Part shown: positions 26,661-29,796 of the stretch, piece by piece
Layout of the letters: each line of letters starts with the position of its first letter
How positions within the stretch are numbered: the first letter of the stretch is position 1
Assembly (NCBI RefSeq): GCF_013170705.1
Contig: NZ_CP033334.1
Span: 1,240,001 to 1,304,000 of the forward strand
From: Mesorhizobium loti
GTDB lineage: Bacteria > Pseudomonadota > Alphaproteobacteria > Rhizobiales > Rhizobiaceae
Length of the DNA stretch: 64,000 nucleotides
Reading direction: 5' to 3'
Made by a program: the position numbers and the translations under genes
The notes under the pieces: model-generated
The model's input: only the letters and a program-made list of their open reading frames with translations
Told to the model about the DNA's origin: nothing
Databases searched by the model: none

Positions 26661-26981
26661 TCAGCAACTCATCGACTGGCAGAGCGCCTCGACCTGCTCC
26701 AGGTAGAAACGGCATTTCGTGCGCAGGACCCGGAGGTTCGGATCGTCGGCGCCGTTGATCTCGATGGTTTGCATCATGAAATCGAAATGGATGTGAAAGG
26801 CGTCCGCCGCGCCCCAGAGGCTGTCGGCCTGCCAGGTGTCGGTCATCGCCGTTGCGACCAGTTGCCGGGCCTCGACGCGCGCGGCATCCGGTGATGCCGG
26901 TCGACTGGCGATCAGGACATGGAGCCGGCCGAAGACGCTTTCCCCGACGTCGGCGCTCCTGATGGGTGCGATCATGTTCAT
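26661..26981 (-). CDS. Small protein of unknown function (106 residues)
   Basis: Not recognised. The protein is soluble, with a central region rich in aromatic and His residues (WGAADAFHIHFDFMMQTIEI) and a C-terminal part with two cysteines (CRFYLEQVEALCQSMSC has three in total). A GGGGGATCC-type ribosome site precedes ATG at 26981. It is the last of three consecutive small leftward genes downstream of the SagB-type dehydrogenase, 21 bp after the 81-residue gene, so it is probably co-transcribed with them. Convergent with tonB. Confidence 0.6.
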   Translation of the reverse strand: MNMIAPIRSADVGESVFGRLHVLIASRPASPDAARVEARQLVATAMTDTWQADSLWGAADAFHIHFDFMMQTIEINGADDPNLRVLRTKCRFYLEQVEALCQSMSC

Positions 26982-27002
26982 TGGCGGATCCCCCTCGATT
27001 CT

Positions 27003-27248
27003 CTAGGCATGATGTCCATTCTGCGGGCTGCGGGCGATCAAGGCGGGGATAGCGGCGGTATCGGACGGCCGACCCCTGATGATGTTGGCAAGCTCCGCGT
27101 CGGCCTGCTTGAACCAGTAGACCATGTCGGGACGCTCAAGGTCGCCGGCTGCCTTTTTCAGGAGCGGCAGCAGGGTTTGCAGCGCACACACTGTCTCCCA
27201 CCGGTTCGGCTGAGAGCCTGCCGGCGCGCACAGGGCTGACGGTTGCAT
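27003..27248 (-). CDS. Small protein of unknown function (81 residues)
   Basis: A helical, soluble small protein; the central part (WETVCALQTLLPLLKKAAGD, then RPDMVYWFKQADAELANII) is the most conserved-looking. GGAGAG lies about 7 nt before ATG at 27248, only 3 bp after the stop of the preceding small gene, so the two are translationally linked. It resembles small conserved hypothetical proteins seen in rhizobia, from memory only. No function is assigned. Confidence 0.58.
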   Translation of the reverse strand: MQPSALCAPAGSQPNRWETVCALQTLLPLLKKAAGDLERPDMVYWFKQADAELANIIRGRPSDTAAIPALIARSPQNGHHA

Positions 27249-27251
27249 CCG

Positions 27252-27500
27252 CTACGCTCTCCGTGGCTGAGCGTGTTCCTTTACATTCGGCCTGGGATGC
27301 ATCGGGTTGCCGCTGAGCTGCGCATGCCTTGCCGGCCGCGCGCCGCGCAGGACGTCGAAGGCTTCGGCATAGGCCATGCCCAGCAGATAGGAGATCATGG
27401 GAAAACGGCTTGCTTCGGCCATCTGCACCAGCTCATTGGTCATCGACGCGATATATTGAAGACTATCGATCTCTGACTGCCTTAGTGAATGATTTGCCAC
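27252..27500 (-). CDS. Small protein of unknown function (82 residues)
   Basis: Starts with GTG at 27500, with GGAG six nt upstream. The helical core reads YIASMTNELVQMAEASRFPM followed by ISYLLGMAYAEAFDVL, a pattern recalled from short rhizobial conserved hypothetical proteins (form YIADMTAQLE...LAYFLGMA). The C terminus is basic and histidine-rich. It lies 67 bp downstream of the SagB-type dehydrogenase and 3 bp before the next small gene. Function unknown. Confidence 0.6.
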   Translation of the reverse strand: MANHSLRQSEIDSLQYIASMTNELVQMAEASRFPMISYLLGMAYAEAFDVLRGARPARHAQLSGNPMHPRPNVKEHAQPRRA

Positions 27501-27567
27501 GTGCTGCTCCTGTTATCGGATGGAACTCGGGGAACGCGTACTGGCTACACAGAATAGAGTAAGTCGG

Positions 27568-28632
27568 CTAATTAATAGACTGGCCCGCCGAATGCGGGCT
27601 TGGTTCCGGGGTCGAGAGGGTCAACGCGTAAACGGGTGCGTCCGTGAGGCGGTCTAGGCCAAGGAGGCGCTTGATCGCCGAATGGCTGAGCGCTGCCGTG
27701 GGACAGGCCGACAAGCCATGTCTGGTCGCCGCCAACATCATGTTCTGGCCGATATGGCCGGCCTCGATCAGCACGACACGATAGGCGTTGGCATCCTCAT
27801 ATTTCCACATGGTGCGGTCGAGCCTGGCACAAAGCAGGATCAGGCATGGCATGGTATCGGCCCATTCCTGCCCGCCGACCAGTTCGGAGATCTTCGGCAG
27901 ATGGTTGGCAGGAATCCTGCCGAGGTCGTGATCGGCGGCTGAATAATGATAGACGCCGGGGTCCAGACCCTCGACACCAAGCGCGACCACATAGGCCTCG
28001 TAAGGATTCCGCGCGCCACCCGAAGGGGTCATGCCCAGCGGCAGGGCGCCAACACAGTTGCTGGTCTCGCCGGTAATGCCCATACCCGCGAACAGGCAAT
28101 CGGAGAGCTGTTTCGCGGTGATGGTGGGCGCGGCCGCGGTGCGGTTGGTGCGGCGCCGCGCCATCAGGCTCAGCAGTTCGTTGTCGTCGAGTGCGTTCGG
28201 CAGCCGGATGGCGCCGGCGGCATTCTTGAGCATGAGGTCGGGCTGCGCGACGTGCCCGGCGCGTTCGATCTGGCGGGCCTCGGCCTGTTCGATGGTCATG
28301 AACTCCGAGTCCTGGACGCAGAAATGCATCAGCGCCGTCGGAATGCCCCAGCTCCACTGCCCGGAGAACTGCGTTTCCTGTTCGGCTAGCGGCGAGCCGG
28401 CGGTGACCAGGGCGGAAAAATCAAGCAATTGCGGCACGACGGCATTGAGATCGGATTTCGACCATCCGTGGGCGCGTGCGATCTCCGCCGTGGAGGCCCA
28501 TTCGTCCCAGGACGCAAGAAGACCGATCACCTCGGGGCTGCAGTCGAAGACGCTTCTGGTCAGGAAATTACAGGCCGTGACCTTGTTGGTTCCGGGATAG
28601 AAGACAAGCGTTTTTGAAGAGCGCATTTTCAT
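27568..28632 (-). CDS. SagB-type nitroreductase/dehydrogenase with an N-terminal peptide-binding-like domain
   Basis: Predicted FMN-dependent oxidoreductase of 354 residues. The C-terminal ~200 residues are SagB/ThcOx-like: RRRTNRTAAAP, PSGGARNPYEAYVVAL followed by GLDPGVYHYSAADHDL, and LIEAGHIGQNMMLAATRHGL then AIKRLLGLD. Residues ~1-90 form a small winged-helix-like domain (FLTRSVFDCSPEVIGLLASW, STAEIARAHGWSKSDL) reminiscent of PqqD-like RRE domains that bind leader peptides. ATG at 28632 follows the 31-codon peptide gene by 67 bp. SagB-type enzymes oxidise azolines in TOMM natural products or otherwise mature peptides; no YcaO cyclodehydratase is present, so the reaction is open. Confidence 0.78.
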   Translation of the reverse strand: MKMRSSKTLVFYPGTNKVTACNFLTRSVFDCSPEVIGLLASWDEWASTAEIARAHGWSKSDLNAVVPQLLDFSALVTAGSPLAEQETQFSGQWSWGIPTALMHFCVQDSEFMTIEQAEARQIERAGHVAQPDLMLKNAAGAIRLPNALDDNELLSLMARRRTNRTAAAPTITAKQLSDCLFAGMGITGETSNCVGALPLGMTPSGGARNPYEAYVVALGVEGLDPGVYHYSAADHDLGRIPANHLPKISELVGGQEWADTMPCLILLCARLDRTMWKYEDANAYRVVLIEAGHIGQNMMLAATRHGLSACPTAALSHSAIKRLLGLDRLTDAPVYALTLSTPEPSPHSAGQSIN

Positions 28633-28699
28633 GATGCTGAATGCCGTTTTGTGAATTTGAGGCGCCGACGGGCGAACATCCCGTCGGCGCCGAACGACT

Positions 28700-28795
28700 T
28701 CAGCGCTTGTTGTAGTGCATGCCCTGCGAAAAGAAGACGGTCTGCGTGCCCGCGGCAACCGTCAGCTTCGGGGCATTGTTCACTTTCTTGGCCAT
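28700..28795 (-). CDS. Candidate RiPP precursor peptide, 31 residues
   Basis: A short gene directly upstream of the SagB-type dehydrogenase. A strong ribosome site (AAAGGGACGAAAATG on the minus strand) precedes ATG at 28795. The peptide has a basic N-terminal part (MAKKVNNAPK) and a distinct tail TQTVFFSQGMHYNKR; it has no Cys. Size, position and partner enzyme fit a leader-plus-core substrate of a ribosomally made, modified peptide. A longer in-frame reading to 28993 runs through the AT-rich leader and is not favoured. The identification is inference from context; the peptide family is not one I recognise. Confidence 0.6.
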   Translation of the reverse strand: MAKKVNNAPKLTVAAGTQTVFFSQGMHYNKR

Positions 28796-29046
28796 TTTCG
28801 TCCCTTTCCCGACCCCCCAATGGGATCTGTTGAAGGATCCCCACCGTGGGATCCGCGAGAAGAAAGGTAAGTTCGAAAGAGTTAATGATTTGTTAAAACC
28901 GTAGTAAAGGGCACGCGATCTAAAATATCTTTCTTCGCGACAAAGTTTAAAAAATCGATTTTTCTCGGATAGTGAGTAGGTATACGCTAGCATACGCTCT
29001 TTCGAGGTATTCTTATTCTCATTTAGCGTAAATTGGATGCGCGAGA
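28796..29046 (-). promoter_or_regulatory. AT-rich promoter and structured leader of the peptide/SagB operon
   Basis: This 251-bp gap is much more AT-rich than the rest of the window. Nearest the peptide gene it has GGATCCCcaccgtGGGATCC (28835-28854), a 7-bp inverted repeat with 6-bp spacer in the probable 5' leader, plus another TGGGATC at 28821-28827. Farther upstream are two direct ATACGCT copies 10 bp apart (28982-28988, 28992-28998) and a CTCTTTCGA / TTCGAAAGAG inverted pair (28997-29005, 28872-28881). The AT-rich block between them likely holds the promoter. Regulator unknown; the adjacent HTH protein is a candidate. Confidence 0.4.
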
Positions 29047-29796
29047 TCAGCCCTGCCCGTCCCGAGCGAGGCTGACGACCAACGGATCGATGCCCGGATC
29101 GTCAAGCTTGACGACATGCGCCATGCGGATCGCATGCCGTGGCCGGATGCCGGACATGTCCTGCCGCATGATGACGGATACGAATGCCGGCCCGGCCTCG
29201 GTCAGGAGCATGGCCTTGCCGATCAGAACCGGTTCGGAGATCGGCGCCCATTGCACGGAGATCAGCGACGGCTCGCCGGTCTGGCGACGGTTGACGCCGC
29301 TGAAATAAATCCAGTTCAGGCGAGAGATCGCCACGCCATAATGATTGCCGCGCGCCCGAGCCCATGTCGAGCCACGGCGCTCCGACCACCCGGTGACTCT
29401 GCGGAATGTGACCAGTTCGACGTCGCGACGCACGAAGGTTACCGACCGCATCAAGAGGTCGGAACGGGTCGGGATCGAAAAATAGGTGAAATAGGTGCCT
29501 CCCGCGATCGATGGAGCGGGCGGGCGGATCATCTGCTTGAACAGGCTTTCCGAAATCGGCGGCAGGCCTGGGGCCATTGGCTCGGGAAGACCCGGGTCCC
29601 GGTACAGTTCGGCTTCATCGATGCGGAAGTAGTCGCAGATCAGTTTGGCAGTGGCCTTGTTCGGAACGGTCTGCCCCTGCAGGTAACGTTCGAACTGCGT
29701 GCGGTTGATACCCAACTCGCGGCACACCGCGCTGACGGAGGCATGGTTTTCGCAGAGCCGTCTGAGATTTGCAGCGAGATTCTCGCGAATGGACAC
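29047..29796 (-). CDS. XRE-like helix-turn-helix regulator with a C-terminal sensor-like domain
   Basis: Protein of about 249 residues. The N-terminal Cro/CI-type helix-turn-helix is at ~1-60 (LAANLRRLCENHASVSAVCRELGINRTQFERYLQGQ, then NKATAKLICDYFRIDEAELY). The remaining ~170 residues have no domain I recognise and could sense a ligand. The start is uncertain: GTG at 29796 is preferred because the HTH starts soon after and a perfect palindrome lies 28 bp upstream; an in-frame ATG at 29889 would read through that palindrome. Same strand as, and upstream of, the peptide/SagB operon, which it may control. Confidence 0.72.
   Translation of the reverse strand: MSIRENLAANLRRLCENHASVSAVCRELGINRTQFERYLQGQTVPNKATAKLICDYFRIDEAELYRDPGLPEPMAPGLPPISESLFKQMIRPPAPSIAGGTYFTYFSIPTRSDLLMRSVTFVRRDVELVTFRRVTGWSERRGSTWARARGNHYGVAISRLNWIYFSGVNRRQTGEPSLISVQWAPISEPVLIGKAMLLTEAGPAFVSVIMRQDMSGIRPRHAIRMAHVVKLDDPGIDPLVVSLARDGQG

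Follow-up and report, generated by a model that had tools for sequence, protein, structure and literature searches.

What does a SagB-type dehydrogenase act upon when its closest companion is a very short peptide without cysteine and no YcaO cyclodehydratase lies nearby? This question is raised by a minus-strand gene set of Mesorhizobium loti, found in a stretch of 64,000 nucleotides (contig NZ_CP033334.1, positions 1,240,001 to 1,304,000; hereafter the window), which encodes an XRE-type regulator, a 31-residue peptide and a SagB/ThcOx-type enzyme. The comparisons described below suggest that the set probably represents a minimal family of ribosomally synthesised and post-translationally modified peptides (RiPPs), in which an enzyme that carries its own RiPP recognition element (RRE) oxidises a conserved Phe, Tyr or Leu near the peptide tail, probably by desaturation. 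An earlier note, made from the DNA of the window, had proposed a minimal RiPP-like pair of precursor and SagB enzyme without azoline chemistry, together with three small proteins. The pair is supported by the present analysis, while the small proteins have dropped out of it.

In order of transcription, the minus strand holds the regulator, the peptide, a hairpin, the SagB-type enzyme and then frames of 82, 81 and 106 residues; the coordinates given previously for five frames, and their assignment to the minus strand, were all correct. The peptide gene (28700..28795, minus strand) encodes the putative precursor MAKKVNNAPKLTVAAGTQTVFFSQGMHYNKR, for which frame, conservation and selection can be cited and which is, as had been noted, free of cysteine. 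The frame is present in 62 of 62 Mesorhizobium loci, a collection of two sets overlapping in genomes and including one locus with a split enzyme (L063), and it occurs there as 39 distinct gene sequences. When the 62 loci are compared with their consensus, 30 of 62 possible synonymous changes are observed against 23 of 217 possible non-synonymous ones (Fisher p 6.6e-10). By this measure of sequence change, the peptide frame is a genuine gene, maintained by purifying selection. Its tail, GMHYNKR (residues 25-31; 28703..28723, minus strand), is invariant in the 39 distinct Mesorhizobium genes and contains the proposed modification site, Tyr28 (codon at 28712-28714, minus strand), a position filled by F, Y or L in distant peptides.

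These distant peptides were obtained from a scan of species genomes that used 30 aligned enzymes as query and gave 128 confirmed loci, 80 of them kept; the upstream DNA was translated at 41 non-Mesorhizobium loci and peptide frames were assigned by eye. At 30 of the 41, a frame of 25-42 residues with a ribosome site lies 10-120 bases ahead of the enzyme, and the enzymes paired with this position-conserved peptide are 39-61% identical. The peptides themselves are scarcely alignable outside the tail, which takes forms such as GALFNKR, GMYYNKV, GMIFDKR, GLHYNKV, GLCFNKV, GMMFRID, GMQFRPE and GWHFSR. After near-identical peptides had been removed (23 of 34 kept), an aromatic residue was found among the last six positions in 21 of the 23 (shuffles: mean 7.6, maximum 15), and F, Y or L was found third or fourth from the end in all 23 (shuffles: mean 5.0, maximum 12); since the latter motif was defined after the peptides were seen, the cleaner test is offered by three genomes fetched afterwards, all of which have a peptide at the predicted place, with tails ending in AMSYDKR, LQYRNS and GLFYNKV. 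The peptide frame is kept beside homologous enzymes in same-genus, distant and later-fetched genomes, a matter on which the earlier note had staked its proposal. That note had named Met, His, Tyr and Lys as candidate oxidation sites; only the Tyr position is universal across the distant peptides, as F, Y or L, which narrows the list.

Further support is provided by the joint distribution of the two genes. The enzyme and the peptide (residues 1-31, E ≤ 0.01) were each sought in one set of 150 related genomes. The enzyme is near full length in 30 of them, all of the same genus (one, G088, is flagged with an in-frame TAG), and a further genome, G062, has it in split form. An intact peptide was detected in exactly these 31 genomes and in no other of the 150, using a Mesorhizobium query that is blind to diverged peptides of other genera. 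A damaged peptide was found in three genomes that lost the enzyme (G080, G065 and G046). Inspection of six genomes of the genus in which the enzyme is lost or reduced to a remnant showed the peptide gone or damaged in all: at L148 and L149 an enzyme remnant is left and no peptide match was found, L150 has neither gene, and at L152 and L153 one deletion removes the peptide tail along with most of the enzyme. The sixth, L151, has a whole peptide without the enzyme, with the tail AMHDNKR in place of GMHYNKR, two otherwise invariant residues having changed; this is a single-case anecdote, in the direction expected for co-decay. Among 7996 candidates scored, 994 protein relatives of the enzyme were recorded at E ≤ 1e-5. 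The enzyme occurs in 13 of 397 genomes of the order (E ≤ 1e-60) and in 2 of 385 of the class (E ≤ 1e-40), the window's genome being counted in both, and this patchy distribution therefore points to an accessory trait.

The enzyme (27568..28632, minus strand; 354 amino acids, ATG start) is an RRE-fused SagB/ThcOx-type dehydrogenase, for which FMN is the likely cofactor, judging by the family. Its nitroreductase/SagB domain (residues 150-344; 27601..28185, minus strand) is matched by PF00881 and TIGR03605 and contains the motif W276-K277-Y278-x-D280. The score on the NCBIfam SagB model TIGR03605 is 102.6 bits, above the cut-off of 78.4, and together with the PF00881 match and the ThcOx-like motif this bears out the SagB/ThcOx-type assignment made before. 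The comparison with peptide maturation dehydrogenase models that the note had recommended gave a divided answer: TIGR04511 (SagB_rel_DH_2, 'putative peptide maturation dehydrogenase') is the best-scoring curated model for the rhizobial enzyme at 147.6 bits, yet this lies below its cut-off of 240, as do the scores of ten relatives (116.9-153.7 bits). The W-K-Y motif aligns with ThcOx and is invariant in 13 diverse family members; a Lys/Tyr pair is reportedly catalytic in McbC. ThcOx, BmdC, McbC and the cyclodipeptide oxidase AlbA are among the structural relatives of the enzyme. The N-terminal domain (residues 1-90; 28363..28632, minus strand) was predicted by AlphaFold2 with a pLDDT (predicted local distance difference test) of 95.6, and its structure matches include TigE, TbiB1, MccB, PbtF, ThcOx, TruD and PqqD. 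The model therefore assigns it the RRE fold, by which RiPP enzymes bind leader peptides, and the expectation that the winged-helix-like N-terminus would match RRE folds is, at the level of a model, borne out.

With regard to azoline chemistry, the window itself holds no YcaO gene anywhere in its 64 kb, which extends the earlier observation that none is adjacent. Seven of 13 other enzyme-bearing genomes (G012, G110, G221, G272, G313, G390 and G403) have no YcaO at E ≤ 0.001, and these are 98-100% complete except for G221 (78%); the enzyme can therefore be regarded as independent of YcaO. None of the YcaO genes found elsewhere adjoins the enzyme; the smallest distance between the two on a shared contig is about 92 kb (G009). 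Cysteine occurs in 4 of the 23 de-duplicated peptides, the tail has no fixed Ser/Thr column, and the core is not rich in Cys, Ser or Thr as that of a linear azol(in)e-containing peptide would be. The view that standard azoline chemistry is unlikely here thus agrees with both the YcaO-free genomes and the scarcity of cysteine.

Other precursor types stand directly upstream of more remote enzymes, 35-42% identical. Four tandem-repeat precursors precede a related lone SagB-type enzyme, with the repeats RIVFSTGSA x5 (L092:6656-6958), RIVFATGSA x4 (L094:3066-3341), RMLWATGSA x3 (L098:1442-1687) and RMPYC x2 (L100, stop 5001), and a fifth with SPFVAA x3 (L101, stop 87) is cut by the contig end. These loci come from Caulobacteraceae and other metagenome-assembled genomes (MAGs), and by their sequences the precursors are apparently multi-core RiPPs. 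Two Bacteroidota-labelled loci, L088 (stop 6984) and L096 (stop 6956), have precursors of approximately 105-117 residues with a YNK motif near the end (GAAGYNKA and GALRYNKA, respectively), after a long charged leader. No ribosome site was seen at L096 or L101, nor at the long start of L088. As each repeat has one aromatic residue (F, W or Y), the repeats point to an aromatic as the shared target.

The peptide gene is preceded by the XRE-type regulator (29047..29796, minus strand; a GTG start was taken at 29796, the frame being open to 29889), which consists of an N-terminal helix-turn-helix (HTH) and a conserved C-terminal domain. Pfam matches are limited to HTH families, leaving the C-terminal domain without one, although an alignment of 21 members (A2) reveals that this domain is conserved in Hyphomicrobiales; sequence searches of the PDB gave HTH matches only, and 13 of the 21 members have weak matches to RstR repressors. 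A regulator relative was found by tblastn at 29 of the 30 distant loci with a short peptide (all but L103; the L084 copy is downstream on the other strand) and in two of the three later-fetched genomes (not L162), that is, in 31 of 33 short-peptide loci overall. No tblastn match at E < 1e-3 was obtained from the remaining eleven outgroup loci, of which some lie on short contigs. On the evidence of these sequences, the regulator belongs to the gene set. A role as exclusive partner was rejected, since paralogues stand alone and matches occur in enzyme-less genomes; the window's genome has a second copy, 65% identical, without peptide or enzyme (G000:C1:3313398-3314129).

Between the peptide and enzyme genes lies a 12-bp GC hairpin with no T-tract (28661..28691, minus strand; z -6.06 for the fold of 28633-28720). 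The equivalent gaps were compared with mononucleotide shuffles at 28 of the 30 distant loci, the near-duplicates L071 and L086 having been left out and the L084 gap measured up to an earlier enzyme start. From peptide stop to enzyme start the gap is at least 15 nt in 26 of the 28, and apart from L079 and L090 these gaps all fold better than shuffles (24 of 26, z ≤ -2.0). The hairpins have unrelated sequences, and a T-tract is present at L064, L067 and L069. The earlier account, correct as to the genes it listed, had omitted both the conserved regulator directly upstream of the peptide and the hairpin that splits peptide from enzyme. Two inverted repeats of the GATCCC...GGG(G)xTC type occupy 28811-28854 in the regulator-peptide interval, one being GGATCCC-N6-GGGATCC (28835..28854) and the other imperfect (28811-28827). 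The GATCCC arm is invariant in alignment A3 (15 loci), and the pair is a candidate operator or structured 5' untranslated region. A promoter and terminator scan did not rise above chance, with one promoter-like site (shuffles 1.1) and one terminator-like site (shuffles 3.1).

Taken together, these elements suggest the following scheme. The 31-residue peptide would be the precursor, its N-terminal and middle part serving as a leader to which the RRE domain at the enzyme's N-terminus would bind, as its fold implies. The SagB/ThcOx-type flavin domain would then take two electrons from Tyr28, or from the F, Y or L of relatives, most likely through Calpha-Cbeta desaturation yielding a dehydro-amino acid. 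The hairpin after the peptide gene may ensure that peptide transcripts outnumber those of the enzyme, and the upstream XRE-type protein would regulate the gene set. A more ambitious version, which we regard as doubtful, envisages an intracellular signalling circuit: once its tail F, Y or L had been desaturated, the peptide, which no dedicated protease would trim and no dedicated pump export, would be read by the regulator's C-terminal domain, and the regulator would in turn control the set. In that version the system would be one branch of a wider lone RRE-SagB family that installs dehydro-Phe, -Tyr, -Trp or -Leu, the Caulobacteraceae repeat precursors included.

Several observations weigh against the proposed RiPP scheme. 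The window's genome has one YcaO (G000:C1:6103079-6104068, 146.8 bits), unlinked at about 6.10 Mb to the enzyme at 1.27 Mb, and 6 of the 13 other enzyme-bearing genomes hold one or two, likewise unlinked. No recurrent peptidase or exporter family occurs among the 30 listed gene clusters around 40 enzyme loci. Leu replaces the aromatic residue at the site in 3 of 30 distant peptides (L069, L073 and L074). The short-peptide type is missing at 11 of the 41 distant loci, of which 7 have the other precursor types; upstream of L093 (43 bp of upstream DNA), L095, L099 and L102 no precursor could be assigned, and none was recognisable upstream of a SagB-type gene of more distant relationship, from another member of the class (L166, G725). 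As to the enzyme, the full-length model was built on 30 sequences, and the ThcOx match has an rmsd (root-mean-square deviation) of 10.5, indicating a different domain arrangement. For the N-terminal domain, Foldseek placed only TigE below E 0.001 (4.3e-4), the other matches being ranked but weak, and a Pfam search of 30 enzyme sequences gave no PqqD/RRE match, so that the RRE assignment rests on structure.

The alternative that survives best, although unlikely, retains the same RiPP pair and assigns it another oxidation, be it in the Asn/Lys region after the site, as an oxidative cross-link or as oxidative C-terminal trimming. In 17 of the 23 peptides Asn/Asp-Lys comes next after the hydrophobic residue, all 23 have a basic residue among the last four, and flavin enzymes of the nitroreductase superfamily are known for varied chemistry. 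However, all 23 keep F/Y/L whereas 6 have other residues in place of N/D-K, the repeats of L092, L094, L098 and L100 retain one aromatic each without N-K, and the W-K-Y motif also occurs in the azoline oxidase ThcOx, all of which favours the hydrophobic site. A considerably less probable reading treats the peptide not as a substrate but as a regulatory leader, acting on the enzyme gene by attenuation or ribosome arrest through the hairpin. The frame is short, its C-terminal residues are invariant and the hairpin lies just ahead of the enzyme gene; in addition, the Tyr, Asn, Lys and Arg codons of the tail are fixed in the 39 distinct genes, which may reflect an extra nucleotide-level constraint, and it is because of these codons that the reading is retained. 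It fits poorly with an enzyme whose RRE-like domain belongs to a type known for precursor binding, with the multi-repeat precursors of remote relatives, and with hairpins of unrelated sequence, the window's own lacking a T-tract. Very improbable, too, is the notion of a free nitroreductase-like oxidoreductase beside an unrelated small gene: the nitroreductase superfamily is broad, yet the pairing is conserved in position with a shared tail despite the wide divergence of the enzymes, the RRE-like fold and the co-decay speak for a functional link, and the weight of this notion is lowered because co-occurrence across the 150 genomes is exact. Finally, SagB-type enzymes classically oxidise azolines, and a YcaO acting in trans on Ser/Thr could supply them given the unlinked copies mentioned above, but this is scarcely credible because YcaO is missing from 7 of the 13 other genomes with the enzyme, and only 4 of 23 peptides contain Cys.

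The three downstream frames, which the earlier note had counted as operon parts, were rejected as core components, being found in that position only in Mesorhizobium. The 82-residue protein (27252..27500, minus strand) is best viewed as an optional accessory that outlives the enzyme, as all six genomes that lack an intact one retain it. The 81-residue frame (27003..27248, minus strand) is probably not part of the system and is patchy, with at least 7 of the 30 loci in the genus matching it partially or not at all (L007, L008, L012, L024, L026, L028 and L029), and the 106-residue protein (26661..26981, minus strand) is a Mesorhizobium-only neighbour. The 82- and 106-residue proteins are single-copy in the window's genome. 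A protein search with the former gave 47 matches, the named ones being 'hypothetical' or 'uncharacterized'. At 9 of the 30 distant loci (L065, L066, L068-L071, L073, L074 and L078), relatives of this protein lie on the opposite strand between regulator and peptide; they have 72-96 residues and a YLL/YLI-x-M...EA motif, seven having been recognised by BLASTP (E ≤ 1.6e-6) and those of L068 and L078 solely by alignment. The Mesorhizobium 82-residue protein also shares 79% identity with P0151, a protein that carries the label Streptococcus suis and is probably a contaminant.

The wider neighbourhood was surveyed by clustering frames of at least 70 amino acids within approximately 7 kb of the 40 enzyme loci, the 30 listed clusters being judged by their first residues. 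Two families recur: that of the enzyme at 34 loci and that of the regulator at 25, a low count, as the automatic gene choice missed some copies found by tblastn; the next-largest cluster reaches 7 of 40 loci. Among the smaller clusters, one is ABC-ATPase-like (4 loci) and another resembles EamA transporters (3 loci); both vary in their placing, so that no transporter is specific to the set. The TonB/ExbBD-type genes next door were also rejected as a part of it, since they are on the convergent strand and none lies beside the distant loci.

No description of this system was found in the literature searched, outside which subscription journals mostly lie, and the regulator, peptide and RRE-SagB set of rhizobia and some relatives is apparently undescribed. 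Frames of 25-42 codons are presumably easily missed in annotation, which may explain why the system has gone unremarked. If the proposed scheme is true, the set would be about the smallest conceivable RiPP pathway, with one precursor, one enzyme bearing its own recognition domain and one regulator. Stand-alone SagB-type enzymes would gain a function of their own beside azole formation, and the system would point to a wider family, in which lone dehydrogenases are paired with single-core or repeat precursors that bear aromatics, among genomes and MAGs with the labels Alphaproteobacteria, Bacteroidota and Gemmatimonadota.

Among known systems, the azoline oxidases SagB, McbC and ThcOx (TIGR03605; 5lq4, 8pz5, 6gos) share with the rhizobial enzyme the nitroreductase-type flavin fold, and ThcOx also the W-K-Y motif and an upstream RRE-like domain; unlike them, the rhizobial system needs no genomic YcaO (7 of 13 genomes being without one) and its precursor has no Cys-rich core. 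The oxidising enzyme of the pyrroloquinoline quinone (PQQ) pathway is a radical S-adenosylmethionine protein, and the present system differs from PqqA/PqqD and other RRE-based RiPP pathways in that its oxidising enzyme is of the flavoprotein type. AlbAB desaturates Phe and Leu, but acts as filaments on cyclic dipeptides and is not known to use a ribosomal precursor. These cyclodipeptide oxidases (8uc3, 9exv), whose entry titles give C-C oxidation in cyclodipeptides, likewise have the nitroreductase fold. SagB-like enzymes have been placed beside ATP-grasp genes (PMC8939145) and PF00881 has been used among RiPP markers (PMC12710340). PflD is an MNIO-nitroreductase fusion of a Pseudomonas RiPP cluster, whose nitroreductase domain makes Z-dehydrophenylalanine with no YcaO; the authors who describe it regard nitroreductases that lack a YcaO or are joined to MNIOs as rare and of uncharacterised function (PMC12636437). 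As in PflD, a nitroreductase-fold domain would here act on a RiPP precursor without YcaO, the dehydrogenation of Phe being described for PflD (PMC12636437) and its counterpart being proposed for the rhizobial enzyme. In contrast to PflD, the rhizobial enzyme has no MNIO domain, its surroundings have no recurrent transporter, GNAT or HEXXH gene among the listed clusters, its SagB-type domain is fused to an RRE-like domain, and its precursor has 25-42 residues with the putative site near the C-terminus.

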